Source: a virus
Reading direction: 5' to 3' (one strand)
Virus record (IMG/VR): IMGVR_UViG_3300027976_000006
Location: 62,001-126,000 of that record
Length of the DNA stretch: 64,000 bases
Position 1 is the stretch's first letter. Each line of letters starts with the position of its first letter. A program made the position numbers and the translations under genes. Below are positions 3,834 through 55,761 of this stretch, in pieces. The notes beneath the pieces were generated by a model. The model worked only from the letters and a program-made list of their open reading frames with translations. It made no database searches and was not told where the DNA came from.

Positions 3834-5756
3834 ATGTCAATGATGTCTGCGGGTAATACTTACTTTAATCAAGGCACCAGCAATACTGGTTTTTCTGACC
3901 CTTTTAACGATATTGCCACCTCGCATATGCCGACTACGATGAAAACGGCGTTGTGGTGGTCTGAATACATCTGGACGATGCAGGGTACTTACCGCATGGC
4001 GATGGAGCGCATTGTCAGTTATTTTATTACAGAAATTGAAATAGGGGGCGAAGCTAACGACGAAGAAAAAGTTAAGTATTCTGATTTTTTAAAAAACCAA
4101 TTGCATGTTTTAGATTTTCTTAACCAAGTTATGCGAGATCGTCTTTGTTATGGCAATTCTTTTGCAAGCGTGGTCGTCCCGTTTCGCCGATTTTTACGAA
4201 ATCCAAAAACTGGTGATATTTATCCGCTTAAATTTGTGTATGAAAATTTTGATTTTAAATTTACAGAAAAGTTTGAATTTGAAGCAACTTGTCCAAAAAC
4301 AAAATGGCGAGGTCCTTGGGTTGTAGAAGACAAAGCGAGAGAAGAGTCTAAACATTTAATTTTAAAACGCTGGAGCCCTCACGAAATCGAAATTTTGCAT
4401 GATCCATATACCGATGAAGTTTCATACTTATGGCGCATACCTGAGTACTATAAAAAAATGGTTAAAGATGGGAATCTTTTTCATTTAGAACGGGCAAGTA
4501 AGCAAGTTCTTGAAACCATAAGAACGGATAAGTTATTTAGGTTTAATCCTGCTGCTATCTTTCACATGAAAGAACAAACTTTAGCTGGAATACGAAACCT
4601 TGGGTGGGGGTTACCCCGAAGTTTAATAAACTATCGTCAAATATGGTATGTGCAAGTTTTGCGCAGATACAACGAAGCTATCGCGTTGGATTATGTGATC
4701 CCCTTCCGTTTGATTACACCCGCAGCACGCAGTGGTGGGTCTAATGCGGGTAACATCGCAACGCAAGACCCTATGTCTATTTATTCAGCTGGTGATTTTA
4801 GATCACAAGTTAGACAAATGATTAACAGAAGAAGGCGGGATCCAGCTGCGTGGCAGCTTCTGCCTTTCCCTGTTAATTACCAGATTCTTGGCGGAGATGC
4901 CAAACAACTGGCACCTACGGAATTGATTCAGCAGGGCACCGAAGAATTGCTGAACGAATGCGGTACCCCTGTTGAATTTTATCAAGGTTCGTTGTCGTTA
5001 CAAGCCGCGCCTGTTGCTCTTCGTCTTTTTGAAAGCACGCATCGTCAATTAGTAACAGATGCAAACTCTTTCTTGCAGTGGATGTGTAATTCTATTAGCC
5101 AAATTATGTCCTGGGAACTTGTGGATTGTAGTTTACAGCGAGTTACTACTGCCGATGATATGCAGAAACAAATGGCTGCATTACAATTAATGATGGGTCA
5201 GCAGTTATCCGGTACAACTGGGCTTCGTGCGATGGGATACAGCTGGGATACGGAACAAAAATTGCTTGCTGCTGAGGCAAGTAAGCAGCAAAAAATGCAA
5301 GCGAGACAAGCGGAAGAAGCCGAACAGTCTGGATTCGCTGCCCAAATTTCTAAAGGTGTTAATCCAAGTGCGGGTGGTGCCCCTCCTGCAGGTGGGCCTG
5401 CAGGTGGTCCTCCTGCCGGTGGCGGTGCCCCACCTGCAGGTGGCGGTGGTGCTCCTCCGTCTGGCGGGGGTGCTACCGCAGGTGGTATCCCAACTCCTGT
5501 TACTAACTATTTGCAGTCAATGGGGCCAAACTCTGCTATTACTCCAAATGATCTACAAGCGGCTGCGGAGCAGTTATCTCAAGAATTACTCGGTATACCT
5601 GAAGCTATTAAAGATTCTGAACTGCGTAAACTTAAAGCAAATAACCCGACACTGCATTCAGTTGTTCGCACCAAGTTAGACGAAGCACGCAGTAAGCTGC
5701 GGCTGCAAGGTGGTGCGATGTTGCAACAACAGATGCAGCAGGGTGGAGGGGGTTAG
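3834..5756 (+). CDS. Portal protein (putative)
   Basis: 640 aa. Portals form the dodecameric ring at the capsid vertex through which DNA is packaged and ejected. Features consistent with a portal are the long helical stem and clip region, a segment typical of the family (RLCYGNSFASVVVPFRRFL, about 104-122), a Leu-Pro-Arg-Ser helix (about 260-265), and a C-terminal barrel-like helical region with Gln-rich helices (about 440-500). The last 140 residues include an Ala/Gly/Pro-rich linker (about 505-550) and a further helical domain. ATG 3834 follows GAGGGAGAACCAGTA. Length is within the large-phage portal range. The assignment rests on pattern recognition. Confidence 0.65.
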   Translation: MSMMSAGNTYFNQGTSNTGFSDPFNDIATSHMPTTMKTALWWSEYIWTMQGTYRMAMERIVSYFITEIEIGGEANDEEKVKYSDFLKNQLHVLDFLNQVMRDRLCYGNSFASVVVPFRRFLRNPKTGDIYPLKFVYENFDFKFTEKFEFEATCPKTKWRGPWVVEDKAREESKHLILKRWSPHEIEILHDPYTDEVSYLWRIPEYYKKMVKDGNLFHLERASKQVLETIRTDKLFRFNPAAIFHMKEQTLAGIRNLGWGLPRSLINYRQIWYVQVLRRYNEAIALDYVIPFRLITPAARSGGSNAGNIATQDPMSIYSAGDFRSQVRQMINRRRRDPAAWQLLPFPVNYQILGGDAKQLAPTELIQQGTEELLNECGTPVEFYQGSLSLQAAPVALRLFESTHRQLVTDANSFLQWMCNSISQIMSWELVDCSLQRVTTADDMQKQMAALQLMMGQQLSGTTGLRAMGYSWDTEQKLLAAEASKQQKMQARQAEEAEQSGFAAQISKGVNPSAGGAPPAGGPAGGPPAGGGAPPAGGGGAPPSGGGATAGGIPTPVTNYLQSMGPNSAITPNDLQAAAEQLSQELLGIPEAIKDSELRKLKANNPTLHSVVRTKLDEARSKLRLQGGAMLQQQMQQGGGG

Positions 5757-33274: not shown

Positions 33275-34075
33275 ATGAATAAGACAAATGCACAAAAATT
33301 ATTAAAACGAATTCGAGCCGAAAAATCTGCTGAGTTAGGTGATTCACTTGGTGACACACTTAGGCAGCAGGTCAATCAGCAAATGCAAAATGATGCAATT
33401 AAAACCATTCTTAAAACAGTAGCATTGTCTGCCGGAGCGGGTGCTGCATTCCGCGGAGCTATGGGATTTTCCGACTTCTCACAAGTTAGTAAAAAAGGGC
33501 CACGAGTAGTTGAAATGCCGGTAATATACCCTAAAGAAAAAGACAAAACCTTGCCGAAACCAGAGAAAACCGCAATAGATTCTAACGCTAGAGCAACTGC
33601 TCCGCATGGTTTGGACTATTATTTGCCTAGTTTACTTGTGGGGGCGCCGCTAGCCGCTTACGGTGGGTGGAAAGGCGTAGACTTTATTTTAAGTAACGCA
33701 CGAGAGCAAGAAAGTAAAGCAAAGCTTGAAGCTTCTAAAAAGAAATACGAAGAAGCACTGCTTGGTTCGTACAAAACAGCAACTGACGGTTATTTAGATC
33801 GTGCGTTTGTTGGATATGCTCAAAAAGTTGCGTTTGACCCAATTGGGGCTACATCTGCTGCATTCAATTCTACTTTTCCAAACGCTTCTGGGCTTGGTAA
33901 AGGTTTGGCTTTAACTTATCTGCTAGCGAGTGTTCCTGCTGGGTATTTTCTAGTAAATAAGGCTATGAAGAAAAATAGCAGGAATAAAATACTGGAAGAG
34001 GCTGTTGCGGAAAGAGCGCGACGACAAGCGATAGCACAACCTCCTGAACTTTACGCTGTGCCGCACAGCATATAA
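33275..34075 (+). CDS. Putative virion membrane-interacting protein, 266 aa
   Basis: ATG 33275 lies 10 nt after the preceding stop with weak GGGA upstream. The protein has three hydrophobic Ala/Gly/Leu segments: about 46-62 (TVALSAGAGAAFRGAM), 115-135 (YLPSLLVGAPLAAYGGW) and 205-225 (LALTYLLASVPAGYFLV). Basic helices separate them, and K-x-A motifs occur (EKTAIDS, YKTATDG, QKVAFDP). It is just upstream of the polymerase gene. It could be an internal or ejection protein; not recognised. Confidence 0.6.
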   Translation: MNKTNAQKLLKRIRAEKSAELGDSLGDTLRQQVNQQMQNDAIKTILKTVALSAGAGAAFRGAMGFSDFSQVSKKGPRVVEMPVIYPKEKDKTLPKPEKTAIDSNARATAPHGLDYYLPSLLVGAPLAAYGGWKGVDFILSNAREQESKAKLEASKKKYEEALLGSYKTATDGYLDRAFVGYAQKVAFDPIGATSAAFNSTFPNASGLGKGLALTYLLASVPAGYFLVNKAMKKNSRNKILEEAVAERARRQAIAQPPELYAVPHSI

Positions 34076-34095
34076 TTTTGGCTGGAGTTTTACAA

Positions 34096-37000
34096 ATGCT
34101 TCCGTTTTCTTCTAATTTGTTTAATCCCGACGCTATGTCCTTGTTGAGTAACGTGCCACAACCGTTGCCAGAAGCTCCCGTGGTTCCATCGTTTCCAGCG
34201 GTTCCGTCGTTTCACGAATTTCATGATACTAATAAAGTTAGATCGCTCATTTACGACAAAGTGCTGAATGCGGCGCAGCAGGTGCAGCCTATCTCCAACG
34301 ATCGGCACACGCTGAGGTTATCTGATATAAATTATCGAGATGGTGACAAGTTTAGTAAGCAAGATCAAAAATCTTCCATTCTCAATGGGAGGACTCAAGG
34401 GCGTAGGCTAGAAGGAACTTGGGAGCTCTTGGATAATGCGACACAGCAAGTAATAGACTCCAAGAAGTCAGTGCTGGCGACTGTTCCGCACTTGACTGAT
34501 CGTGGCACGTTTATAAATAACGGTACCGAGTATATTTTACGAAATCAACAGCGGTTATTGCCAGGAGTTTATACCCGGGCAAGGAACAATGGCGAGATTG
34601 AATCGCATGTTAATGTTATGGCAGGAAAAGGCGTTTCACACCGTTATTTTTTAGACCCAGAAAAAGGTAGATTTAAACTCAAGGTAGGCCAAGCATCGGT
34701 AGGATTAACTCCTTTGTTGAAAGCTATGGGGGTTACCTCCGAGCAAGCCAAAGAAGCGTGGGGCACGGATCTATTTGCTGCCAACTATAACTCAGATGAC
34801 GCTTCCGACTATACACGGCTTAAAGGTATGTTTCTTTCGTCCAAAGAATTACAAGGGCCGGAAGATCAACAGAGACAAGCTTTGCTTGCTAAATTTTCTA
34901 AAATGGAAATGGACCCCGAAGTAACACGGCGCACGCTGGGAAAGCCTTATGCAAATATGTCATTGGACGCTGTGCTAGACATCACGAAGAAATTAATAAG
35001 TGTTAACAAAAATGAATCAGACCCTGATGACAGGGACGCGCTTCATTTTCAGCAGTTTGTCGGGCCAGAGGATTTGTTTTCAGAGCGAATCGCACGAGAT
35101 AAAGGGCAGGTACGCCGTAATTTACTATGGAAAATGTCAGGAAAAGGTAATTTAAGCTCAATGCCTTCGTCCGCATTAGACAAGCAGTTGAAAAGTGCAT
35201 TGCTTAGTAGTGGGTTAGGGCAGGCAATTGAAGAAATCAACCCGACAGACCTTTACGAAAAAACAATGTCGGTTACCCGCGTGGGCGAGGGCGGTATTTC
35301 TTCCATGGATTCTATCCCCAAAGAATCTCGAAATGTGCAATCAAGTATGCTGGGCTATATAGACCCTGTCCGTACTCCGGAATCTGGGCGTGTGGGTGTA
35401 GACACTTATTTGGCAAGAGGTTCTCGAAAAGGAAGCGATGGAAAGCTATACGCGCAGTTTCGAGATTTACGAACTGGTGAAATGGTGTATAAAACTCCAC
35501 AAGATGTGGCAAACTTAACTGTTGGATTTCCAGGAAGTCTAGAAGGGCCAGATAAGCGGGTGCCGGCAATGCGAGACGGCAAAATGCTTCATGTTCCTAA
35601 GGATAGTATTGATCTAGAATTACCTAATATGGAAGAGGCATTCAACCCTCTTTCTAATGTTATTCCGATGAAAAGCCAGGTAAAAGGGCAAAGATTAGTA
35701 ATGGCTTCTCGTATGACTACGCAAGCTTTACCTTTAGTATCGCCCGAAGCTCCTTTAGTACAGTCGGCAGTTCCCGGTACAAACGGGAAGCAAAGCTATG
35801 AAGAGTTGTATTCGCCAGGGATGGGAGCTTTGCGGGCGACACAAGCCGGTAAAGTTATGGCGGTTACTGACGAAGGGATTAAAGTGCGTAATGCGGACGG
35901 TACCGAGGAAACGCATGAGCTTTATAATAACTTCCCTTTTAATCGAAAAACTTTCTTTCAGCAGACTTCGGTAGTTAAGCCAGGCGACACTATCCAGCCA
36001 AATCAATTGTTGGCCAGTTCTAATTACACAGACAAGGTAGGAACGATGGCTTTAGGGGTAAACGCACGTACTGCTTATATCCCGTGGCAGGGCAAGAATT
36101 TTGAAGACGCGATTGTTATTTCAGATAGTTTTGCAAAGAGAACGGCTTCGTCGCATATGTACCAGCACGAGCTGGAGATTGACGACAAAACACAATTAGG
36201 TAAAAGGCAATTTATCCAAGCATTCCCGGCGACATTTAAAAAAGAAACATTAGCGACTATAGATGATCAAGGAATGGTTAAGCCAGGTACGGTAGTTAAT
36301 TTTGGTGATCCTTTGGTTCTTGGTATTACGCAAAAAGAAAATGCATATAACAAGGTGCACAAACAAGGGCAAAAGGGATTTAATAACGCAGCCGTACTTT
36401 GGGAACATCACGATAGTGGCGTTGTCACTGATGTGGTTATGGGTAAAAAAGGTCCGGTTGTTGTTGTTAAAGCTGAATCTCCAACGCAAGTCGGCGATAA
36501 ACTGTCCGGTCGCTACGGGGACAAAGGCGTCATTGCTGATATCATTCACGATAATGAAATGCCACAAGGGGCGGACGGTCAACCTTTTGAAGTGTTGCTT
36601 AATCCTCTTGGGATAATTAGTCGAACTAATCCTGCGCAAATGTCTGAATTGTTTTTAGGAAAAATAGCGGCTAAGCGGGGAACGCCGATTAAAGTAGATG
36701 ATTTTGATACTAAAAAAGACATGAGCCAATGGGTGTTGCAGGAATTAGCCAAAGAAGGTTTGTCTGACTTAGAAGATATTGTAGACCCATCTAAAGATCA
36801 AAAAATTAACAATGTGGCAACGGGTAGTCGTTTTTTTATGAAATTGCACCACACTGCTGAATCTAAAGGGCAGGGTAGAAGTGGCGGAGCTTACACTACG
36901 GAAGATGCCCCAGCTAAAGGCGGTACGGAAGGTTCTAAGCGCATAGGTTTGATGGATGCCAACGCATTGCTTTCTCACGGGGCTACGGACACGTTACAAG

Positions 37001-38562
37001 ACATTTTCACAATACGCAGGCAAAAAAATGACCAGTATTGGATGCAATTTATGGCTGGTTACGATCCAAAAATCACTACAGTTCCTTTTGCATATCAAAA
37101 ATTTGTGAATCAGCTGCGCTCGGCTGGCGTTAATGTGGTCAAGCAGGGAACGCAGACTCAGATTATGGCGATGACGGATAAGGACATTGACAGTTTAGCT
37201 GGAGACCGTGAGTTGACTAACGCAGATGGCGTAGAGTGGGGTAACCAACTAAAAGAGATCAACGGCGGACTATTCGACAAGGCTAAGACTGGAGGGCATG
37301 GCGGGACACGCTGGTCATTCATCAAACTTCATGAACCTTTGCCCAATCCTGTGATGGAAGAACCTATTAGGTCCATGCTTGGACTGACAAAGAAAAAGTT
37401 TGAAGGTGTAATAGCGGGTACAGAATCTTTAGACAAATACGGCAGCGGTACGGCAGCGCTGCAAAAAGCATTAGAAAATTTTAATGTAGATGCGGAAATT
37501 TCTAAAGCACGCGCAGTTATTTCCGCAGGTAGAGGCTCGCAGCGAGATGAAGCAATCCGTAAACTTAGTTATGCTAAAGCGGTGCAGAAGCTTGGGTTAC
37601 AGCCTAAGGACTATATGCTGACCAAGGTACCGGTTCTTCCTCCAATGTTTCGTCCTGTTAGTCTGATGAGTAATGGTATGCCTTTGGTTAACGATGCCAA
37701 CCACCTGTACAAAGAGTTGTTTGAGGCTAACCAGAATTTCAAGAGAATGCAGCAAGAAGTCGGAGAAGATGCTTCTGGGACAGAACGCCTCTCTACCTAC
37801 CAAGCGTTTAAAGCGGTGACTGGGCTGGGGGATCCTATTAGTGCAAAAAGCCAAGAAAAGAATGTTCGTGGTGCATTAAAAAATGTATTTGGAGAAAGCC
37901 CTAAGTTCGGGGTGGTGCAGCGTAAGTTGATTTCTTCCACCGTTGACAATGTAGGGCGTGCTGTTATTACCCCAAACCCATCTTTGGATATGGACTCTGT
38001 TGGTTTACCGGAGGATAAAGCATTTAAGGTTTACGAAAAGTTCGTCACCAGAAGATTGGTGCGACAAGGTATGTCGATGCTGCAGGCTCGTACCCAACTA
38101 GAAGACAAGACGCCAGTAGCCCGTAAGTTACTGGTTGAAGAAATGGAGCATAGGCCAGTGTATATTAGTCGTGCCCCTGTGTTGCATAAATTTGGGATTA
38201 TGGCAATGAAGCCAAGATTGACTAAAGGAAATACATTGCAGGTAAGCCCATTAATTGTAAAAGGGTTTGGAGCTGACTTTGACGGGGACACTATGAATTA
38301 TCATGTGCCCAGCACAGAAAAAGCTAGAAAAGAGGCTTTAGATCGTTTACTTCCCAGCCGTAACCTTTTTAGTATAGCTGACATGAAGTCGGTAATGCAC
38401 GCTCCTGCTAACGAATACATTGGCGGGTTGTTTATGGGGACAGACCCATCACGTAAATCCACGCGGCCTGTCCGGATTTTTCAAAACATACAGGATGCGA
38501 AGCGAGCACACGAAAGTGGAACTATTTCGGTCAATGACCCTGTCCGAATTTTAAATGGTTAG
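34096..38562 (+). CDS. RNA polymerase: beta subunit fused to N-terminal half of beta-prime
   Basis: 1488 aa from ATG 34096 (GGAG 8 nt upstream; a TTG at 34078 is less likely). Beta features come in order: RGTFINNGTEYI (from 136), RTPESGRVGV (about 424-433), GKNFEDAIVIS (666-676), GDKLSGRYGDKG (800-811) and LLNPLGIISRTNP (about 830). From about 1066 the sequence becomes beta-prime (GGHGGTRWSFIKLHEPLPNP), with KVPVLPPMFRP, VDNVGRAVI and the catalytic GADFDGDTMNYH; Asp1394, Asp1396 and Asp1398 hold the active-site magnesium. It ends about 90 residues later. The polymerase is completed by 40245-43865. No alpha, omega or sigma was seen. Placement among virion genes suggests a packaged enzyme. Confidence 0.9.
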   Translation: MLPFSSNLFNPDAMSLLSNVPQPLPEAPVVPSFPAVPSFHEFHDTNKVRSLIYDKVLNAAQQVQPISNDRHTLRLSDINYRDGDKFSKQDQKSSILNGRTQGRRLEGTWELLDNATQQVIDSKKSVLATVPHLTDRGTFINNGTEYILRNQQRLLPGVYTRARNNGEIESHVNVMAGKGVSHRYFLDPEKGRFKLKVGQASVGLTPLLKAMGVTSEQAKEAWGTDLFAANYNSDDASDYTRLKGMFLSSKELQGPEDQQRQALLAKFSKMEMDPEVTRRTLGKPYANMSLDAVLDITKKLISVNKNESDPDDRDALHFQQFVGPEDLFSERIARDKGQVRRNLLWKMSGKGNLSSMPSSALDKQLKSALLSSGLGQAIEEINPTDLYEKTMSVTRVGEGGISSMDSIPKESRNVQSSMLGYIDPVRTPESGRVGVDTYLARGSRKGSDGKLYAQFRDLRTGEMVYKTPQDVANLTVGFPGSLEGPDKRVPAMRDGKMLHVPKDSIDLELPNMEEAFNPLSNVIPMKSQVKGQRLVMASRMTTQALPLVSPEAPLVQSAVPGTNGKQSYEELYSPGMGALRATQAGKVMAVTDEGIKVRNADGTEETHELYNNFPFNRKTFFQQTSVVKPGDTIQPNQLLASSNYTDKVGTMALGVNARTAYIPWQGKNFEDAIVISDSFAKRTASSHMYQHELEIDDKTQLGKRQFIQAFPATFKKETLATIDDQGMVKPGTVVNFGDPLVLGITQKENAYNKVHKQGQKGFNNAAVLWEHHDSGVVTDVVMGKKGPVVVVKAESPTQVGDKLSGRYGDKGVIADIIHDNEMPQGADGQPFEVLLNPLGIISRTNPAQMSELFLGKIAAKRGTPIKVDDFDTKKDMSQWVLQELAKEGLSDLEDIVDPSKDQKINNVATGSRFFMKLHHTAESKGQGRSGGAYTTEDAPAKGGTEGSKRIGLMDANALLSHGATDTLQDIFTIRRQKNDQYWMQFMAGYDPKITTVPFAYQKFVNQLRSAGVNVVKQGTQTQIMAMTDKDIDSLAGDRELTNADGVEWGNQLKEINGGLFDKAKTGGHGGTRWSFIKLHEPLPNPVMEEPIRSMLGLTKKKFEGVIAGTESLDKYGSGTAALQKALENFNVDAEISKARAVISAGRGSQRDEAIRKLSYAKAVQKLGLQPKDYMLTKVPVLPPMFRPVSLMSNGMPLVNDANHLYKELFEANQNFKRMQQEVGEDASGTERLSTYQAFKAVTGLGDPISAKSQEKNVRGALKNVFGESPKFGVVQRKLISSTVDNVGRAVITPNPSLDMDSVGLPEDKAFKVYEKFVTRRLVRQGMSMLQARTQLEDKTPVARKLLVEEMEHRPVYISRAPVLHKFGIMAMKPRLTKGNTLQVSPLIVKGFGADFDGDTMNYHVPSTEKARKEALDRLLPSRNLFSIADMKSVMHAPANEYIGGLFMGTDPSRKSTRPVRIFQNIQDAKRAHESGTISVNDPVRILNG

Positions 38563-38642
38563 GAAACTAAGTAATATATCTCTATCGTAGATTTTAATTA
38601 GGGTTTAGAATCACAAGGTGAGATGACACAAGGAGTATGATT

Positions 38643-39389
38643 ATGGCAGTTAATTTTGAATTGTTACGAATGGCACGACAAAGCATAGGAAAAAAACACT
38701 TATCTAAATATGCATTCGTTGCAGCGGGTGACCCGGCTATGGGTGCTCCCCCGATGGACCCTTCTATGGGCGGTGGCGGTGCTCCCCCGATGGACCCTTA
38801 TATGGGCGGTGGTGGTGCTCCCCCGATGGACCCTTCTATGGGCGGTGGCGGTGCTCCCCCGATGGACCCTTATATGGGCGGTGGCGGTGCTCCCCCGATG
38901 GACCCTTATATGGGTGGTGGCGGTGCTCCGCCCCCAGCCGACCCGATGGCTGCAATAATGCCGATGATTCAGCAAGCGGTACAGCAGGCAATGTCCGCCA
39001 ACGGCGGAGGACAAGCACAAGCAACGCCGTCTGGGCTCAGACCTAAAATCGATATCAATGTCGAAATTGTACAAATTAAGAAAATGCTTGCCAAAATTAT
39101 TGACTCACTTGGTATTCACGTGCCTGTGTCTGATATGGTGGTAACACCTGAAGATTTAAATCAAATTGCGCAAGGTGGCCCTGGCTATGCGGCGGCAACG
39201 CCCGACCAGCCGGCGGGCGGGGGTGGGCTTGGGCAGATTCAGCCTGTTTCTCCCATGAAAGCGGCAGAGGCCTGGGAAAGTGGTGCAGCTTTCAGTTTAC
39301 CTTCTGATTATTACCCAGCGCAAACAGCGCATAAAAGTAAAAGTGTAGCGGAGTTGGCTACTGCTCTTTTAATGCGAAAATCTATGTAA
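38643..39389 (+). CDS. Putative virion protein with Pro/Met/Gly repeats, 248 aa
   Basis: ATG 38643 lies 7 nt after AAGGAG; an ATG at 38637 is too close to that site. After a short basic N-terminus with an LSKYAFVAAG segment (K-x-A), five tandem 12-residue units of the type GAPPMDPSMGGG follow (about 34-93). A helical domain of about 70 residues (KIDINVEIVQIKKMLAKIID) and a C-terminal Pro/Gly-rich tail complete it. It lies between the two polymerase genes. Function unknown. Confidence 0.6.
   Translation: MAVNFELLRMARQSIGKKHLSKYAFVAAGDPAMGAPPMDPSMGGGGAPPMDPYMGGGGAPPMDPSMGGGGAPPMDPYMGGGGAPPMDPYMGGGGAPPPADPMAAIMPMIQQAVQQAMSANGGGQAQATPSGLRPKIDINVEIVQIKKMLAKIIDSLGIHVPVSDMVVTPEDLNQIAQGGPGYAAATPDQPAGGGGLGQIQPVSPMKAAEAWESGAAFSLPSDYYPAQTAHKSKSVAELATALLMRKSM
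38742..38921 (+). repeat. Five tandem 36-bp coding repeats
   Basis: Units of 36 bp beginning GGTGCTCCCCCGATGGACCC encode GAPPMDP(S/Y)MGGG. The copies differ by only one to three bases, indicating recent expansion or conversion. A partial sixth unit follows. Confidence 0.9.
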
Positions 39390-39401
39390 GGAGTTTATGT
39401 T

Positions 39402-39626
39402 ATGTTCATTGTGGAGGTTCTTACTACCGTAGGGAAACCTCCACTTAGGCTTCCTGCTTCTCAAGTTGTAGTGCGTATGCCGGATGGCACTCCAATTAGC
39501 GTGGCGGCTTTGTTCGGCGGGGTTACTAGCGTTTTGGTATCGCATTGTGAAGACTCTAGCTTCAATGACAATTTACGTAAGTTAGGCATTAACGAAACCG
39601 TTATTTCTACAAAGGTACAAGTGTAA
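39402..39626 (+). CDS. Hypothetical protein, 74 aa
   Basis: ATG 39402 follows AAGGAGTTTATGTT. A small beta-rich protein (MFIVEVLTTVG, then ASQVVVRMPDGTPISVAALF) with a single Cys. It is 2 nt from the next gene, so co-translation is likely. Sits between the polymerase halves; not recognised. Confidence 0.65.
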   Translation: MFIVEVLTTVGKPPLRLPASQVVVRMPDGTPISVAALFGGVTSVLVSHCEDSSFNDNLRKLGINETVISTKVQV

Positions 39627-39627
39627 T

Positions 39628-40203
39628 ATGGACAATTCTTTGCGCTCTTCCGACATATATTACAGAGATAGGCAACCAATAGTTGTGCCTAAGCCTGTGC
39701 CGATGCCGACTTATCGGCAATCTTCTAACGAAAGTTTTTCCAATAATAAATATTATGCGGAGATGTCAACACCGGCTGGCACAGACGACATAGTTAAAAT
39801 GCAACTGCGACCAAAAAAAGAATCGGAATTGGAGTTAGCGGATAACTGGGACGGTATAGCAACTTTTCAGAATGAATTTAAAGAAGGTGCCACTTCTATC
39901 GTGGTAAAATCAACTGAAGCTGTAATCCTGCAGTTACAAGTTGCTGTGGATATGGCAGTCGGGCGTAACGAGTTGACGAGAGAGCAGGTAGACTCTATAA
40001 CTTTTGTAGCAACAGCTCGTGCCCCGATTTTTGCGGTACCAAAAGTGCCTCCGATTAAAGAAACAACTGTTTCTCCCAAGAGCACACCCGAGGCAGCCGA
40101 TATCCTAAACGCCCCGACTAAACCGGGCAATAAAAAGGCAAAGCGGGGCATTACCCTGAAAGACATTGCAGCTGTGTTTGATGTCGACGATAGCGACGCT
40201 TAA
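39628..40203 (+). CDS. Hypothetical protein, 191 aa
   Basis: ATG 39628 follows the previous stop by 1 nt. The N-terminal 70 residues are Pro/Ser/Asn-rich and disordered looking. The middle (about 72-132) is a small alpha/beta domain with an acidic-to-hydrophobic alternation. The end has a Pro-rich linker, a basic stretch (GNKKAKRGITLK) and an acidic tail (FDVDDSDA). It lies between the polymerase genes; an accessory role is possible but unsupported. Confidence 0.65.
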   Translation: MDNSLRSSDIYYRDRQPIVVPKPVPMPTYRQSSNESFSNNKYYAEMSTPAGTDDIVKMQLRPKKESELELADNWDGIATFQNEFKEGATSIVVKSTEAVILQLQVAVDMAVGRNELTREQVDSITFVATARAPIFAVPKVPPIKETTVSPKSTPEAADILNAPTKPGNKKAKRGITLKDIAAVFDVDDSDA

Positions 40204-40217
40204 AATCCAGATTTTAA
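40200..40217. promoter_or_regulatory. Recurrent palindromic motif, copy 5
   Basis: TTAAAATCCAGATTTTAA, one base off the perfect palindrome, includes the stop codon of 39628-40203 and ends 27 nt before the start of the second polymerase gene. Confidence 0.45.
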
Positions 40218-40244
40218 ATAATTTGTTCAGGGCAAAACTATTTT

Positions 40245-43200
40245 ATGTTGAACACAACCGTTGGGCAATTGTTGATTAATGATGTACTCCCCGAAGAGAT
40301 GAGAGACTCGCACCGTGTGTTAGATAAGAAGGGGTTGCAATCTTTATTACAACAAGTGGCGCAACAATACCCAGAACGCTATCGAGATATTTCTTTTCAG
40401 CTAAGCCAGCTAGGTCAAAGCATGGCGCAGCAGCAGGGTGGTATGTCGTTTGGTCTGCGACATCTGCAAGTAAGTAAAGCGGCTATGGCATCTCGGCAGA
40501 AAGTTAAAGTTTCACTTGCTAATATACTAGCGGACGACACATTGACGGACCGCCAACGAAATGACCAGATTATTCTTGCTGTTGGCAAGGAAAGTCCCGA
40601 GCAACAAAAGCAAGTTCTGGCAGAAGCATTAAAAGACAAAAACCCGCTTGGGCTGCAGGTGATGTCGGGAACCCGCGGTAAGTCGATGAACCTAACTAGT
40701 CTGCTGGGTTCGGATATGTTGTATTCTGACCAGCGTGACGAAGTGATTCCGATTCCTGTATTGCACAGTTATAGCGAGGGGTTGTCACCTGCGGAATATT
40801 GGGCTGGAACTTACGGGGCGCGCAAAGGGATTATGGCAACTAAGTTTGCCACACAAGAAGCTGGTTTTTTTAACAAGCAGCTAAACCAAACTAGTCATCG
40901 TCTTGTGGTTACGGGAGAGGATGCCGAGGAGGACAAAGACGCACCTATTCGTGGCTTGGTGGTAGACACCGAAGATGCGGATAACGAAGGTGCTTTATTG
41001 GCCCGTGACGCAGGTCCTTACGCACGCAATACCCCACTTACCCCGAAAATACTAAACCATTTACAACGGCTAGGGCACCCTAGAATTTTGGTACGCTCCC
41101 CGCTAGTTGGTGGTTCTCCCGAGGGTGGTGTTTATTCTAGAGATGTAGGTATTAGGGAAACAGGAAGGTTGCCGGGTATTGGGGAGCAAGTTGGGTTGCA
41201 GGCTGCACACGCTCTAAGTGAACCGATCAGCCAAGGGCAACTATCTGCAAAGCATTCTGGTGGGGTTGCGGGGCAAGAAAAAGCTGTAAGCGGGTTTCAA
41301 TATTTAAACCAATTAGTGCAGGTTCCTAAGAAAATGCAAGGCGGGGCAGCCCATTCCCTTACAGATGGCACGGTGCAGCGGATTGAGGCAGCTCCAGCGG
41401 GTGGTAGCTATGTGACCATCGGGGATAAAAGACATTATGTAGGAGTAGGGTATGAGCTTAAAGTTAAAAAAGGAGACGAAGTAGAAGCTGGTGATGTAAT
41501 TAGTACGGGGATTCCTAACCCCGCAACTATTACAGAGCATAAAGGAATTGGGGAAGGTCGGCGATATTTCGTTAACGAATTTCGTAAGGCTATGGGTGAC
41601 AGCGGAATGTTCGGACATCGGCGTAATGTTGAAGTGTTGGCAAGGGGGCTTATCAACCACGTAAGGTTGACGGAAGAAACTGACGATAACGTTCCTGATG
41701 ATATTGTACCTTATTCAACGCTTGAGCACACTTATAAGCCGCGGGCAGACTATCAGCGATTAACGCCCAAGCGTGCGTTAGGTCAATATCTTGAACGACC
41801 TGTGCTGCATTACACCATAGGCACCAAGATTCAACCCTCGATGCTTAAGAATTTTGAAGAATTTAAAGTTAATGAAATTCCAGTGCACAAGAACCCTCCT
41901 CCATTTGTGCCACAGATGGTACGTGGGTTGTATCAAATGCAGCACGACCCCGATTGGATGACACAAATGTATGGGTCTGGGCTGAAGAAAAGTTTTTTAG
42001 ACTCGGTTACGCATGGTGCAGTTAGCGAAGAGCGAGGTACAAGCTTTGTGCCGAGTTTGGCCTTGGGGCTTAATTTTGGTGAAGGCAGTGATCGTGCCGT
42101 AATAAAGCCGAAGTCTGGGGCAACTCCTCCTTTTTTTGGTGGCAGTTTTACTCCGGGTCAAACTAAATTTGCAGCAGATACTCCGAATGTCTCTGCCCCG
42201 CCTTCTGCTTCTAAACCGCCTGCTGTTTCTACCCCACCTAGAACTTTAGCTCCGGGCACAAACATTATGCCGACAGCACCGACACCTGTAAAAGCACCTA
42301 CACCTGCTCCGACATACTCGAACTCTAACGCAAATCAATTTAGTAATTTAATGCATAGTAATTCTCCCTTTGCTCAACAAACCGGGCAGGCGTTGAATCA
42401 AATGAATCCATTACACGCAATGATGATGTTGGGGGGGATGGCTAATAATAATAATAATAATAATATGTCTAGTAATATAATGAATGGGTTTGGCGGGCAA
42501 AATAATGGTGGAATGTTTAATATGTTTAATGGGGGGCAAAATAATAACGGGCAAAATAGCGGAGGAATGTTCAATAATATGTTTAATATGCCCAGCTCGT
42601 ACGATTCGGAATCTAACATGCCTGCTGAGCCTGTAACTGAAAGCCCATATGTCTCGGCTCAAGGTCCAGTAAGTAATACTGCCTCTGGTGCTGCGTATGA
42701 CACCGCAGCAAAGGGGGTAGGTGCGGGATATTCAGCAGTAGCAAATAAATTTTCAAGTCCTCCTATCTCATCTAATATTATGCCTCCGCCGTTGCCTAGA
42801 ACACCTCCTCCGATACCCGCTAAGCTTCCTCCGATACCCGGAATGACTCCTCCTCCGATACCAGGAATGACTCCTCTTCCGCTGCCTGGGGTTAAACCTC
42901 TGGCTGGTATGCTCAGTAAAGCCACTTCAATAGGTGGTACAGGTTTAAAGTTAGTAAGTAAAGCGGCACTGCCACTATCTGTGGCTCTGGACACAATAAA
43001 CGTCGGGCAAGACATATACAACAAAGGTTGGGATAATACAACTAACGACGCAGCACAAAAATGGCGAGATATACTTTCGGCCAAGGATGGGCTACATACC
43101 TTGTATCAAGCTCCATTACAAGTTCTAAACCCTGTGGCTAATGCACAATTAATTGCTGGCGGGGCAACACAGACTGCCCAGATGGTAGGAGAAAAAGCAC

Positions 43201-43865
43201 AAGAAGGGCTAACCCATGCGTATGACAAAGTAACGGGTACGGATACTCGTTCTCGTAATTTTGCAGAGGACAAGACACAAGTTAAAAACATGGAGTTAGA
43301 AAATCAAAGAGATTTAGAAGGACAAAGAGCACTAAATAAGCCGAATCCAAATCTACCCCCAGATAGGTTAGCTTTAAATACGCAAGAAAATGCCCGTCTT
43401 GATGCTAAAATACAAGATTCTAAAACGAGGCAAGGAAATACGGCGGATGAAACTGCAAACTGGAGGCTAGGCCAGCAAAATTGGTTTGGCAGTGGTGGCC
43501 ACAAATTTAGGGATGCTATGCAAAATTCGATTACTAATTCAGCTGCCGAATTGCAGGGTTTAAATAACGGAGGCACACTAGATGCAGGGCAGCAGGCTAG
43601 GAAAGAACAGTTAGAAAACGGACAAGCACAGCGTAAACAAATGATCGGTACTTACGATCGGGAGGGCGGGGCATCTGGTAAAGGTTTGTTTAGTACAGAT
43701 ATGCGCAACCGGGTTAGCAGTCTTAAGGAAAATATTGTGCAGGTCGGTTCACAACTTAGAGACCCCAACCTTCCTCCGGACCAAAAAGCAAAATTAGAGG
43801 CACAATTAAAAAATAATAATGAAATGTTAGAAGAATATCGAGGATGGGCAGAAAGTTCTAAATAA
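40245..43865 (+). CDS. RNA polymerase: C-terminal half of beta-prime with long extension
   Basis: 1206 aa. Residues 179-208 are the bridge helix and trigger-loop start (GLSPAEYWAGTYGARKG). Residues 313-340 match the conserved beta-prime C-terminal helix region (GEQVGLQAAHALSEPISQGQ), and clamp-type sequence follows to about 600. It completes the active centre begun in 34096-38562. Beyond about 630 there is no polymerase similarity: a Ser/Pro-rich part starting just after a TKFAADT segment (K641), an Asn/Gly/Met-rich stretch with seven Asn, Pro-rich repeats, a hydrophobic segment and a charged coiled-coil-like end. The extension resembles the virion proteins of this genome and may be cleaved or serve packaging. 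Confidence 0.88.
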   Translation: MLNTTVGQLLINDVLPEEMRDSHRVLDKKGLQSLLQQVAQQYPERYRDISFQLSQLGQSMAQQQGGMSFGLRHLQVSKAAMASRQKVKVSLANILADDTLTDRQRNDQIILAVGKESPEQQKQVLAEALKDKNPLGLQVMSGTRGKSMNLTSLLGSDMLYSDQRDEVIPIPVLHSYSEGLSPAEYWAGTYGARKGIMATKFATQEAGFFNKQLNQTSHRLVVTGEDAEEDKDAPIRGLVVDTEDADNEGALLARDAGPYARNTPLTPKILNHLQRLGHPRILVRSPLVGGSPEGGVYSRDVGIRETGRLPGIGEQVGLQAAHALSEPISQGQLSAKHSGGVAGQEKAVSGFQYLNQLVQVPKKMQGGAAHSLTDGTVQRIEAAPAGGSYVTIGDKRHYVGVGYELKVKKGDEVEAGDVISTGIPNPATITEHKGIGEGRRYFVNEFRKAMGDSGMFGHRRNVEVLARGLINHVRLTEETDDNVPDDIVPYSTLEHTYKPRADYQRLTPKRALGQYLERPVLHYTIGTKIQPSMLKNFEEFKVNEIPVHKNPPPFVPQMVRGLYQMQHDPDWMTQMYGSGLKKSFLDSVTHGAVSEERGTSFVPSLALGLNFGEGSDRAVIKPKSGATPPFFGGSFTPGQTKFAADTPNVSAPPSASKPPAVSTPPRTLAPGTNIMPTAPTPVKAPTPAPTYSNSNANQFSNLMHSNSPFAQQTGQALNQMNPLHAMMMLGGMANNNNNNNMSSNIMNGFGGQNNGGMFNMFNGGQNNNGQNSGGMFNNMFNMPSSYDSESNMPAEPVTESPYVSAQGPVSNTASGAAYDTAAKGVGAGYSAVANKFSSPPISSNIMPPPLPRTPPPIPAKLPPIPGMTPPPIPGMTPLPLPGVKPLAGMLSKATSIGGTGLKLVSKAALPLSVALDTINVGQDIYNKGWDNTTNDAAQKWRDILSAKDGLHTLYQAPLQVLNPVANAQLIAGGATQTAQMVGEKAQEGLTHAYDKVTGTDTRSRNFAEDKTQVKNMELENQRDLEGQRALNKPNPNLPPDRLALNTQENARLDAKIQDSKTRQGNTADETANWRLGQQNWFGSGGHKFRDAMQNSITNSAAELQGLNNGGTLDAGQQARKEQLENGQAQRKQMIGTYDREGGASGKGLFSTDMRNRVSSLKENIVQVGSQLRDPNLPPDQKAKLEAQLKNNNEMLEEYRGWAESSK
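42445..42465 (+). repeat. AAT trinucleotide repeat (7 units)
   Basis: Seven tandem AAT codons encode seven asparagines in the beta-prime extension, followed by more Asn/Gly/Met-rich sequence. Confidence 0.9.
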
Positions 43866-44245: not shown

Positions 44246-46720
44246 ATGGAAATGCCTAAGCAGAGTAATTCAATAAAGAACGCCAGCATAGGCGGTAAAG
44301 GCGGGGAGACGGAATTTGCCCAGGCTTTTTCCAGCTTAGCCTATGCATACCTAAAAGACAAGGCACCACGACTTCTTGACTATATGTTGGGTTTTCAGCT
44401 AATTGATCGCAATGAAGATAATACTAAAGCAGTTGGTGTTTTTGGTTTCCAGCTCGACAAACAGTGGCTTTATGCCCCTGTATTTTTTTTAAACGGCGAT
44501 TTAAAAGGGCATGAGTTGCTATACGTAAAAAACAATGATTCATTTGTTCCGATGAAAGAAAACTGGATTAACTATCTGATGAGTCGAAAGCCTCATATTT
44601 TAGGCGAACCTTCAGTAAACAAATTGCAAGAGCTTGGTGGGATTGCTCCTGACATTAATTCGTTGTCCTTGTCACCTACCGGCAACAAGAACGCAAGTGA
44701 CATATATTGGCTTCGTCCAGTGCTACCCATGCTGGCAGCTTTTAAAGTAAAACTTGCTAACTCCTTGTATCGAGGAGCGGGCAATCGGCAGCTTGATCAA
44801 AAGGCGATTGTTCGATCGCCATTTACGGCTGCATTAGCCAAGACTGCTTCAAATCTGGATTTTAACCAAGTTCTGCCTAAAAGTCTCTTACTGCTTGAAG
44901 CTGCCTATGACTTAGCCGAGCGGTACCCTGCCATCAAAAAAGCTACTTGTGATTTTTACGGAGCTAACTGTTTTTCACGCTGGGGGAAAGAATTTAGAAG
45001 CAATACGATCAAGCAAGCTAGCAGCATTCTTTATTCACCTACCACGGTCACACTTACATCTACTAATTTGTTAAGCGGGGCAGCACAATCGAGGCCTACC
45101 ATCGATCACATTAAAGAAGGCAAGCTACAAGTCGTTACTTCCGTAACTTCGGATCAAGGCGGGCTGGATACTAAAGACCAAGAGAACTTATTGCAGGGCA
45201 AGATAGTTATTAAGGATAGGCGAGAAGATGCAGAAGTAAGTAAAGTCTATGCAACAGAAAACGAGATTAGACTTTTCAATCCTTCTGAAACCGAACTGTA
45301 CTCTGTACTGGAGAAGTCTGGAGAATTTAGCAAAATGCTGGTGGTGTTAAACGGGATTAGCAGCCGCGGCGCTGAATATATGACCACAGTAATACGCATA
45401 GACGATAAGGATAGTCAGAACAAAAGTTGGTTAAACGCAGACAATACGGCAGTTTTTGCTACGCAAGTTTCCATGGACAAAAATGATTGGAAAGATTGGT
45501 TCGATGGTTTATCCTCCGAGACTGACTTAGCCGAGGAGGCTGAATATATTGCGATAAACGCCACCCATTCCGCCACTGCTCCTTTTCATGTACTCACCGA
45601 TATGGGAGATGGGCAATATAAAGTAGATTTTCGCATAAGTAAAGATTATCTATCTTCTCGTGACTCGCTGCTGCCACAGGTACAATCGCGCTACGCTAGC
45701 GGGGGCGACAACCGCACTCGCGGTGTGACTCTAATTGTGGGTAAACAGGATAAACCAGGGCTTAGACTTCGACCCCTGTCCAGCGAACTGTGCGTGCCTG
45801 CATCTTTTAAATTTATTAAACTGTCTGATGGTTCTTCCTCTGGCTTTTTTGGTAGTTGCGGTTGTTCTCCTTTGGACGAAGATTCAAACCCAATTAAGTT
45901 AGGTAGCTTAAGCGACATTCAACGATTGCTGGTTGAAAAAACAGCCAGGCTTAAAGTGTTCAATAACGGAACTGACGTCTACCTGGATTCGGTTATTGGC
46001 TCTGTGCAGTTAAGTAAAAAGGCAGCATTATGCCAGCTGGTCGCCACACATGGCCTACGCGAAAAAGCAGCCATGGACATGCTGAAAAAAGCGGAGCAGA
46101 AAGGACATGCTGTTTATCGTGTTCGATATGCCCCAGGTTATGGGGCCGAAAAGCAAGCTGCTCCAAATACCAGTGTGCTAGCTGGTGGCCCTACTTTCCC
46201 GCTTGATACTGAATCAAATAACGATGGTAGTGAGACTTATGGCCCTAGCACTTCTGTCCGAACCCAGACTAGTACGGAAAAAACTTCGCCCATACCTTCA
46301 TTAAGCGGGCGTAACACAAATAGGTCCAAGTGGGACAACTGGCAAAACTTCGAGGCTAAGGATTTTAAGCAAAATCTGCAGGCGGCACAAGTCGCGGGCA
46401 AGGAAGGGCAGAAAGAAGTGTTTGATGTTTCGATGATGGCTGGTATGTTAAAAACAGTGCGACAAGATTCAATTGTAGACCGCCACTTAGGTGATTTAAT
46501 GTCGGCGTTAGATTCGCTAGGTCGTTTGATAATGAATTTCTACTGGCACCAGGAAGAATTTGAAGATCGGTATGGCAAAAGTGATCTTCCGGAGTTGGAA
46601 GATAGTTTGCGTAACGCTTTTGAATCTCTTGGGGATATCACACTTTTCTTAAAAGAAAAAACCATAGAATCGTCGGCGGATAAAGGTGATATTAACTTAG
46701 ATGAAGTTTCAAGGAACTAA
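44246..46720 (+). CDS. Putative virion structural protein, 824 aa
   Basis: ATG 44246 lies after CAAGGAATGTCCTT. The first 130 residues form a soluble domain with many aromatic and Asp/Asn residues (FQLIDRNEDNTKAVGVFGFQ). The middle contains beta-rich and mixed segments. Near 640-660 an AEKQAAPNTS segment carries the K-x-A motif, followed by a Ser/Thr/Pro linker (about 655-700) and a helical C-terminus that ends acidic. It starts the 44-56 kb structural block. I recall similar domains in other large phages but cannot name the family. Confidence 0.6.
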   Translation: MEMPKQSNSIKNASIGGKGGETEFAQAFSSLAYAYLKDKAPRLLDYMLGFQLIDRNEDNTKAVGVFGFQLDKQWLYAPVFFLNGDLKGHELLYVKNNDSFVPMKENWINYLMSRKPHILGEPSVNKLQELGGIAPDINSLSLSPTGNKNASDIYWLRPVLPMLAAFKVKLANSLYRGAGNRQLDQKAIVRSPFTAALAKTASNLDFNQVLPKSLLLLEAAYDLAERYPAIKKATCDFYGANCFSRWGKEFRSNTIKQASSILYSPTTVTLTSTNLLSGAAQSRPTIDHIKEGKLQVVTSVTSDQGGLDTKDQENLLQGKIVIKDRREDAEVSKVYATENEIRLFNPSETELYSVLEKSGEFSKMLVVLNGISSRGAEYMTTVIRIDDKDSQNKSWLNADNTAVFATQVSMDKNDWKDWFDGLSSETDLAEEAEYIAINATHSATAPFHVLTDMGDGQYKVDFRISKDYLSSRDSLLPQVQSRYASGGDNRTRGVTLIVGKQDKPGLRLRPLSSELCVPASFKFIKLSDGSSSGFFGSCGCSPLDEDSNPIKLGSLSDIQRLLVEKTARLKVFNNGTDVYLDSVIGSVQLSKKAALCQLVATHGLREKAAMDMLKKAEQKGHAVYRVRYAPGYGAEKQAAPNTSVLAGGPTFPLDTESNNDGSETYGPSTSVRTQTSTEKTSPIPSLSGRNTNRSKWDNWQNFEAKDFKQNLQAAQVAGKEGQKEVFDVSMMAGMLKTVRQDSIVDRHLGDLMSALDSLGRLIMNFYWHQEEFEDRYGKSDLPELEDSLRNAFESLGDITLFLKEKTIESSADKGDINLDEVSRN

Positions 46721-54751: not shown

Positions 54752-54813
54752 TTTTTAAATATTAACTCAATCTAACCACAAGTTTGATTGATACCACAAG
54801 GAGGTTTTTACGC

Positions 54814-55761
54814 ATGTCTAATTCCAATACTATGACTCAAGAAGAAAGCAAACTTCTTAGTCAGACAATTTTTGAAAAGTTGGCTTCTAGGGACTCTGGT
54901 CTTGAAAAGCAAGCCGTTGACGCCGTTAACGACTTTACTAGAACTAAGATGCGCGAAGATGGATTTTATCGTAGGATTATGCCGCCGATTCCATTAAGCA
55001 ACGATGATCTTGATCGCCAAGTCGATACGGACAAACCTGTAAAGATTGTGGACAAGGAACCTGATAGTCCAGCGGCTATCTCAATTCCTTTTGCCACGCT
55101 TCCCACTAACCTGTACATTCGTGGTGACAGGTACAAAGTTACTTTTGACCGCATCGTGACCCCTAAATTCACGAAAGATGTGGACGAACTTCGTACTTGG
55201 CACATGGACATCCGCCAAATTTTGTCGGACAATGCCATTAAGGATATGCTAGCGGAAGAAGATGGAAAATTTATTTCTGCGGTCAACACCGCTCTAGTTG
55301 GTGCAGAAACAATTGTTCCTACCTCTGGCGTAATCCAGTACAAGCAGCTTGGTGGTGGCGTCACCCGTGGCAACTTGTGGGATAGCTTCAAGATTATGCC
55401 AAGCACGCCTTCTAATCTGGAAGTTCACTCTGTCCTGCTTAATAACATCACGATTAAAGAAGTTGCAAAACTTAATCGTACTGAGATGGGCGGCGACCTT
55501 AGCGAAGAGATTATGCGTAATGGTTGGACTTACAGTGAATTCATGGGAGTTCAGTGGATCATCACAATTAAGAAGGGACTTGTCCCGACTAACACGATGT
55601 ATCATTTCGCAGACCCTAAATTTATTGGCAAGAGCTATATGATAGAAGACACTACGATGTATATCCGTCGTGAAGCGTATTTTATCGAATTTTTTGCCTA
55701 TGAAACTTTGGGTGGCACCATTGGGCATACCTCCGGTCTTGCTCGGGTTGACTTTACCTAA
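54814..55761 (+). CDS. Major capsid protein (HK97-type)
   Basis: 315 aa from ATG 54814, behind AAGGAGG. The N-terminal part is helical with two K-x-A motifs (FEKLAS, LEKQAV, about 21-35), a likely delta-like segment removed during maturation. A beta-rich core with an E-loop-like region and a long spine-helix region follow (ELRTWHMDIRQILSDNAIKD, about 128-147). The C-terminus is strand-rich (YIRREAYFIEFFAYETLGG). It lies after scaffold- and decoration-like genes, has a strong ribosome site, and is closed by a 12-bp-stem terminator, as expected for a highly expressed capsid gene. Confidence 0.75.
   Translation: MSNSNTMTQEESKLLSQTIFEKLASRDSGLEKQAVDAVNDFTRTKMREDGFYRRIMPPIPLSNDDLDRQVDTDKPVKIVDKEPDSPAAISIPFATLPTNLYIRGDRYKVTFDRIVTPKFTKDVDELRTWHMDIRQILSDNAIKDMLAEEDGKFISAVNTALVGAETIVPTSGVIQYKQLGGGVTRGNLWDSFKIMPSTPSNLEVHSVLLNNITIKEVAKLNRTEMGGDLSEEIMRNGWTYSEFMGVQWIITIKKGLVPTNTMYHFADPKFIGKSYMIEDTTMYIRREAYFIEFFAYETLGGTIGHTSGLARVDFT

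Follow-up and report, generated by a model that had tools for sequence, protein, structure and literature searches.

A phage RNA polymerase with beta and the N-terminal part of beta-prime in one chain and the remainder of beta-prime in a second

Cellular multisubunit RNA polymerases assemble on the alpha subunit. How phage enzymes stay together without alpha is an open question (PMC7598289), and it is posed again by a locus of the IMG/VR virus record IMGVR_UViG_3300027976_000006, in which one RNA polymerase is encoded as two chains. The stretch analyzed, called the window here, comprises bases 62001-126000 (64,000 nucleotides) of this 156,975-base linear record, which is possibly incomplete. 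A preliminary description of the window had proposed that beta is joined in frame to beta-prime as far as just past the catalytic DFDGD motif, and that a second polypeptide supplies the rest of beta-prime; Pfam domains and alignment with the Escherichia coli subunits confirmed this arrangement. As the best explanation overall, we consider it probable that this two-chain phage polymerase goes back to an ancestral fusion followed by a single later break.

One catalytic centre across two chains

The first polypeptide, chain A (Table 1), was matched by Rpb2 domain 6 (7e-50), Rpb2 domain 3 (2e-5), and Rpb1 domain 2 (1e-23) of Pfam. Its profile matched solved beta chains in PDB, and a separate stretch of it matched beta-prime/gamma chains. 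The open frame spans 34078-38562 (1,494 amino acids) and contains an in-frame TTG at 34078; the start is probably the ATG at 34096, which has GGAG just before it and would give a protein of 1,488 residues. Counted from this ATG, the catalytic aspartates stand exactly where they had been placed, at D1394, D1396, and D1398. In the alignment with E. coli RpoB and beta-prime, whose numbering is the reference here for residue equivalents and for the break position, chain A reaches the C-terminus of beta (PESFNVLLKEIRSLGINIE, aligned with E. coli VPFAYQKFVNQLRSAGVNVVK) before the linker and the beta-prime moiety, from which the zinc-finger 1 region, the first beta-prime zinc site, is absent. The AlphaFold model of residues 296-1494 of the 1,494-residue frame (pLDDT 82, pTM 0.71) had a bacterial beta chain as its best Foldseek match (5zx2_C, E 1.1e-51).

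The second polypeptide, chain B, begins at about E. coli beta-prime residue 571 (TTVGRAIL in E. coli, TTVGQLLI in chain B), and its profile matched beta-prime chains in PDB (1.5e-68). A model of its residues 1-635 (pLDDT 87, pTM 0.77) was closest to Thermus thermophilus beta-prime (Foldseek, 5x21_D, E 1.9e-27, TMq 0.75). The bridge helix had been expected in this chain, beginning after its start, at residues 179-208; the placement held, but the model sets the limits at 182-217. The trigger helices lie at residues 316-338 and 346-359. Chain B had also been thought to end simply in the beta-prime C-terminal helices, and here the first view was incorrect, as the polymerase core ends at about residue 620 and is followed by a tail of about 590 residues that had been missed. 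Among the loci of relatives (L numbers), extensions of 305-730 residues are present in L008, L009, L011, L012, L047, L076, and L077, and one of 42 residues in L010; over all split forms, the median number of residues after the beta-prime core is 12.

The residues of both barrels, the bridge helix, and the trigger loop that are expected for catalysis were all found, by residue check and in the AlphaFold models. The equivalents of beta R678, D814, K1065, K1073, and R1106 are all present. They do not vary in any phage row that extends over them, and neither do those of R425, D460, D462, and D464 in beta-prime and of R780, Q929, and H936 in beta-prime-C. The motif around the Mg-binding aspartates reads GADFDGD in the window and NADFDGD in 22 of the 77 relatives scored. 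The Mg-binding loop is confined to chain A, and the bridge helix and trigger loop are confined to chain B; one complete catalytic centre is thus spread across both chains and is incomplete in either alone. That both chains are required for one active site, as had been suggested, is strongly supported, because its parts are divided between them, the key residues are conserved, and sister phages have one polypeptide. In the working enzyme, the lobes of beta, the two double-psi barrels, and the aspartates that bind Mg would come from chain A, the bridge helix, the trigger loop, and the remaining beta-prime would come from chain B, and a physical complex of the two would form the single active site.

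By alignment, beta-prime is broken in the loop between E. coli residues 550 and 571, after the DPBB domain and so, in agreement with the first description, between the catalytic loop and the bridge helix. The one-chain relative L175 reads ...DDVVTVKGAKGATTVGRLM at this junction, and the window chains read ...NDPVRILNG (then stop) and MLNTTVGQLL. Single chains are continuous through VTV-KGAKGA-TTVGR, whereas split chains end in VRILNG and resume with MLNTTVGQ, with no conserved sequence missing at the junction of the split forms. The deep single-chain forms L172 and L139 have a shorter junction.

The junction also bears on the idea that trans-splicing or a split intein unites the two chains at the RNA or protein level, which would make the active polymerase one polypeptide. 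These genes are indeed a target of mobile elements: the fused chain of L072 (L072:9860-15661) has an intein with a LAGLIDADG endonuclease in beta-prime-N, and beta is interrupted by a homing-endonuclease gene in Vibrio phage D181 and likewise, by match summary, in D148. However, in the window the fold boundary is where chain A stops and chain B begins, with few residues to spare and no space for intein halves, and the genes between them encode conserved small proteins rather than splicing elements. An intron or split intein at this place, for which no splicing halves were found, was rejected, and joining of the chains appears very improbable. A homing-endonuclease origin of the main split was likewise discarded; such an element was seen only for the extra break (D181) and has no general support.

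Relatives and the order of fusion and break

The IMG/VR scans matched 142 and 379 relatives, of which 80 of each were taken; once duplicates were dropped, 123 distinct phage sequences remained. Five close relatives, whose chain A is 70-87% identical, have the same two frames, and in 121/121 distinct phage relatives that show both parts, a single frame encodes beta and beta-prime-N. Neither chance nor an assembly error can therefore explain the fusion. It is a property of the whole phage clade, and the option that the arrangement is unique to the window phage is ruled out by the relatives that share it. An assembly or annotation artefact, or decay of the polymerase genes, could be suspected in a metagenome-derived record, and one relative (L073) does have broken frames. 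With the same fusion in 121 distinct relatives, two chains in the sequenced isolates Salmonella phage Arash (gp206/gp216) and Vibrio phage D69, and invariant catalytic residues, such explanations have next to no probability, and an artefact or frameshift was ruled out on the strength of the relatives and isolates.

The number of chains varies within the clade. In 26 of 103 distinct relatives, beta-prime-N and beta-prime-C are in the same frame, giving single chains of about 2,020-2,160 residues, or longer with inserts; a search of 50,697 phage records for a cultured member with a single chain found none. Three chains are present in the Arash-related loci L113-L128, which have an extra break inside beta-prime-N (profile position ~100-110). 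Further interruptions were also observed. The fused chain is broken once more in L076 and L077 (beta profile position ~942), and the beta match of the fused frame is split by inserts of ~150-500 residues in L059, L062, L064-L068, L071, L079-L082, and L087. An intein reading of the ~335-residue beta insert in L064 was withdrawn, as Pfam found no intein in the beta inserts of L064 and L079.

Other arrangements occur elsewhere among phages. Separate beta and whole beta-prime are encoded by Yersinia phage GN1 and Cobetia phage Carin-5, a whole beta-prime is found in Rhizobium phage Y65 and in Vibrio phages Va2 and 1.031.O, and IME392 has a two-part beta-prime without the beta fusion. An IMG/VR search for relatives of the separate-subunit beta-prime of the Yersinia and Cobetia phages gave none. 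None of 80 GTDB bacterial loci had the fusion, 72 of them having ordinary, separate, and intact rpoB and rpoC; bacterial matches in GTDB were 24-32% identical to the phage enzyme. Three records deposited as phages (OR846602, OR844998, and CAKLQH020000005) hold bacterial-type rpoB and rpoC and are apparently host contigs, the last having adjacent ribosomal protein genes.

In the main tree (1,957 columns, LG+C20 PMSF), all split forms fall into one clade with support of 100/100. This clade was recovered with support of 98 in a tree of 80 rows, and with support of 100 in a tree of 37 rows that included 14 bacteria and two separate-subunit phages. The phage polymerases stand apart from the 14 bacterial rows (support 100) and, with a bacterial root, the single-chain forms lie outside the split clade, at its base. 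The one-chain forms are also the more bacterial ones. The cysteines of the second zinc site are kept in 23/28 single-chain loci (18 loci from the split set also have this site) and lost in the clade of the window, and the position of trigger-loop R933 holds R or K in 19/28 one-chain forms and serine in most split forms.

These sequence comparisons point to fusion first, with a single break in one chain later, as the likely order. A short linker would have joined beta to beta-prime in an ancestral phage, giving a chain of ~2,060 residues; in one descendant clade, the gene would have broken once, in the loop corresponding to E. coli beta-prime 550-571, with the conserved sequence left intact, and accessory genes would then have come between the polymerase halves. 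The reverse order, a split before the fusion, takes one step more. It would have beta fused to a beta-prime already cut at a cyanobacterial-type site, with the halves re-joined later in the one-chain phages. The phage break is indeed close to that between cyanobacterial rpoC1 and rpoC2, a cyanobacterial source of the phiKZ-like break is offered as one possibility in PMC7598289, and the one-chain forms could be a single group, as they are in 20% of bootstrap trees. However, the two breaks are near each other but not at the same position: cyanobacterial RpoC1 extends ~68 residues past the end of chain A and RpoC2 starts at about chain B residue 20, which puts the phage break ~20 residues upstream. 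Identity with the cyanobacterial split was rejected for this reason. With the split forms nested as one clade, basal one-chain forms that look more bacterial, and the extra step, we find a split before the fusion unlikely.

Fusion followed by a break has its own weak points in the trees. Paraphyly of the one-chain forms is not firm, so that this order is partly based on parsimony, and the root is bacterial only, with long phage branches; the cellular sequences in the 37-row tree are its 14 bacterial rows, and cyanobacteria are in none of the trees.

Surrounding genes and possible packaging

Table 1 Features of the polymerase locus and its surroundings. Positions refer to the window; G000 denotes positions in the full virus record, outside the window. 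Fractions give the number of two-chain representatives with a homologue
Feature	Position	Strand	Evidence or remark
Chain A, beta fused to beta-prime N-terminal part	34096..38562	+	1,488 aa; Pfam Rpb2 and Rpb1 domains in one frame
Beta moiety, full length to E. coli beta C-terminus	34096..37143	+	Alignment with E. coli RpoB, Arash, D69
Linker, beta to beta-prime, ~40 residues	37144..37263	+	E. coli alignment
Beta-prime N-terminal moiety	37264..38559	+	E. coli alignment; from DGLF motif to E. coli beta-prime ~550
Catalytic loop GADFDGD, Mg-binding aspartates	38269..38289	+	D460/D462/D464 equivalents invariant in covering phage relatives
Chain B, beta-prime C-terminal part and C-terminal extension	40245..43865	+	1,206 aa; Pfam Rpb1_5 1e-18
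Chain B polymerase core, aa 1-620	40245..42104	+	AlphaFold, Foldseek
Bridge helix, aa 182-217	40788..40895	+	One unbroken helix in AlphaFold model; R780 and T790 equivalents present
G-loop and trigger loop, aa ~313-360	41181..41324	+	E925, Q929, H936 equivalents conserved
Chain B C-terminal extension, ~590 residues	42105..43862	+	P/N/Q-rich, coiled-coil-like; only in the clade of the window
266-aa protein directly 5' of chain A	33275..34075	+	37/41
P/M/G-rich repeat protein between chains, 250 aa	38637..39389	+	36/41, outside Arash group
74-aa protein between chains	39402..39626	+	33/41
191-aa protein between chains	39628..40203	+	3/41, close relatives only; no Pfam match
824-aa protein, 3' of chain B	44246..46720	+	phmmer 1.3e-5 to Arash gp218 'structural protein'
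Portal protein	3834..5756	+	phmmer 8.5e-52 to Arash portal
Major capsid protein	54784..55761	+	phmmer 9e-36 to Arash major capsid protein gp226
Sigma-like protein, homologue of Arash gp10	G000:138760-139569		Outside window; Sigma70 region 3 1.9e-5, weak region 4
Tubulin/FtsZ-family GTPase, 420 aa	8956-10218	+	Pfam 1.4e-10; motif GGGTGSG
Ribonucleotide reductase	28105-30384		PHROG 367, 8e-134

Several structural proteins are recognizable by homology to Arash, as is TerL outside the window. The 824-aa protein downstream of chain B has homologues in 31/41 of the two-chain representatives and in 7/10 of the Arash-like ones, and a portal homologue lies within the upstream flank of the polymerase in 18/24 of the single-chain representatives and in 10/10 of those like Arash. 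The place of the locus in the clade, beside the portal gene and in the midst of head genes, suggests that the enzyme is probably a late product and that the virion may carry it, ready for early transcription after the next infection, a proposal to which we give about an even chance. The low-complexity tail of chain B perhaps has a role in packaging or tethering. The sigma-like gene stands among structural genes in both the virus record and Arash, and its product probably sets promoter specificity.

As an alternative to the packaging step only, the polymerase could be a non-virion enzyme of the phiKZ type, acting only in the infected cell. The sigma-like gene of the phage itself would fit such an enzyme, as would the Arash record, which is free with the label 'structural' and does not apply it to the polymerase genes. 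The conserved place near the portal, among head genes, argues for packaging instead, as does the finding of only one polymerase set: Rpb1_1 was matched at a single place in the 157-kb record, where a very divergent second set could escape. With one set found, early transcription would depend on the host if the enzyme were non-virion, which we regard as a serious possibility, somewhat short of even.

A search of the record for alpha gave no match, and one for omega only a sub-threshold match; the beta to beta-prime-N fusion plausibly stands in for part of the alpha/omega assembly scaffold. The wider picture, for which we see as much in favor as against, is of a clade of tailed phages, widespread and in part cultured, that descends from an ancestor with a single-chain, near-bacterial polymerase (no alpha or omega, its own sigma, next to the portal) that later came in two and then in three chains. 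In the window itself, the distance of ~28 kb between the portal and polymerase genes tells against this setting, and the missing alpha and omega are weak evidence, since the linear record may be incomplete.

If the picture is right, these phages offer a series, produced by nature, in which the universal enzyme of transcription was fused and then divided again, and they possibly also have a virion polymerase with a new architecture. One near-bacterial enzyme occurs in nature with one, two, or three chains, and the two-chain version has cultured phages, so that what the joining of chains contributes to assembly can be tested directly. The clade also shows that breaks near the rpoC1/rpoC2 position can originate independently. 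Caution is also due in deep trees, where phage beta and beta-prime markers may derive from a single fused protein.

Two side observations concern other genes of the window. The FtsZ-family GTPase, possibly a PhuZ/TubZ-like phage cytoskeleton protein, had a homologue only in L171 among the relative loci compared. A ribonucleotide reductase gene was also found.

Comparison with known systems

No description of this architecture, or of the series of one, two, and three chains, was found in open-access literature text. Beta and beta-prime also share one frame in the RpoBC fusions of NCBIfam models NF007172 and NF011417, a type known from Helicobacter and Wolbachia. Those fusions are cellular, full length, and unsplit, whereas beta-prime is split in the window. 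NF007172 was the best-scoring NCBIfam model for chain A and for the single-chain form L130, with the phage chain scoring 338 bits against a curated cut-off of 5372.

The mReC phages (Weinheimer and Aylward 2020, PMC7481178) encode beta and beta-prime, and the main text of that paper mentions fusion only for crAssphage. As described there, the mReC Caudovirales are, like the window virus, tailed phages from IMG/VR with a bacterial-like beta and beta-prime that branch outside bacteria. Profiles of cellular subunits likewise recognize the beta and beta-prime that the window phage encodes, and these belong to a separate clade outside bacterial polymerases, as judged with 14 bacterial rows only. 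The mReC filters were a length of at least 800 aa and the motif NADxDGD, in place of which the window has GADFDGD. The major capsid protein family PF07068 and the TerL family PF03237, stated there for the minority of mReC contigs having these genes, gave no match in the virus record at E<=10; its major capsid protein and TerL were recognized only through Arash homology. Because the mReC filters would take one fused protein as both subunits, that set of 97 contigs may contain this clade unnoticed.

As in the window, beta-prime is cut after the catalytic loop and before the bridge helix in cyanobacterial RpoC1 and RpoC2; there, however, the break is those ~20 residues further on, beta is separate, and RpoC2 exceeds 1,200 residues. 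In phiKZ-like and cyanobacterial enzymes, beta-prime is broken after the same barrel domain (PMC7598289), and the break position as such is already known; for the phiKZ type, we took it from the description in that paper and not from an alignment of our own. The phiKZ/AR9-type enzymes resemble that of the window in being multisubunit phage enzymes without alpha, with beta-prime broken after the catalytic barrel. They differ in having two sets, virion and non-virion, and in that beta is split as well as beta-prime (PMC7598289), whereas the window has a whole, fused beta and one set was found.

The closest known systems are Arash and D69, which belong to the same clade and have the same two chains, and D148 and D181, which are alike except that beta is further interrupted. 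The annotation of their genes goes no further than 'RNA polymerase subunit beta' or 'hypothetical'. In Arash, the portal gene is directly upstream of the polymerase. Unlike the window phage, all four keep the second zinc site and have no extension of chain B.

Both barrels are held in one chain in the crAss-like phi14:2 gp66, YonO, and P23-45 gp96/gp64, as in the single-chain sisters of the window enzyme. Such single-chain two-barrel polymerases, reviewed in PMC10770324, are highly divergent from cellular ones according to that review and PMC7481178, whereas the clade described here is near-bacterial in sequence throughout and the window form has two chains. The distinction drawn at the outset from phiKZ-like enzymes, with their split beta, and from the single-chain crAss and YonO enzymes therefore stands: in the window, beta is whole and fused, and beta-prime-C is a separate chain.

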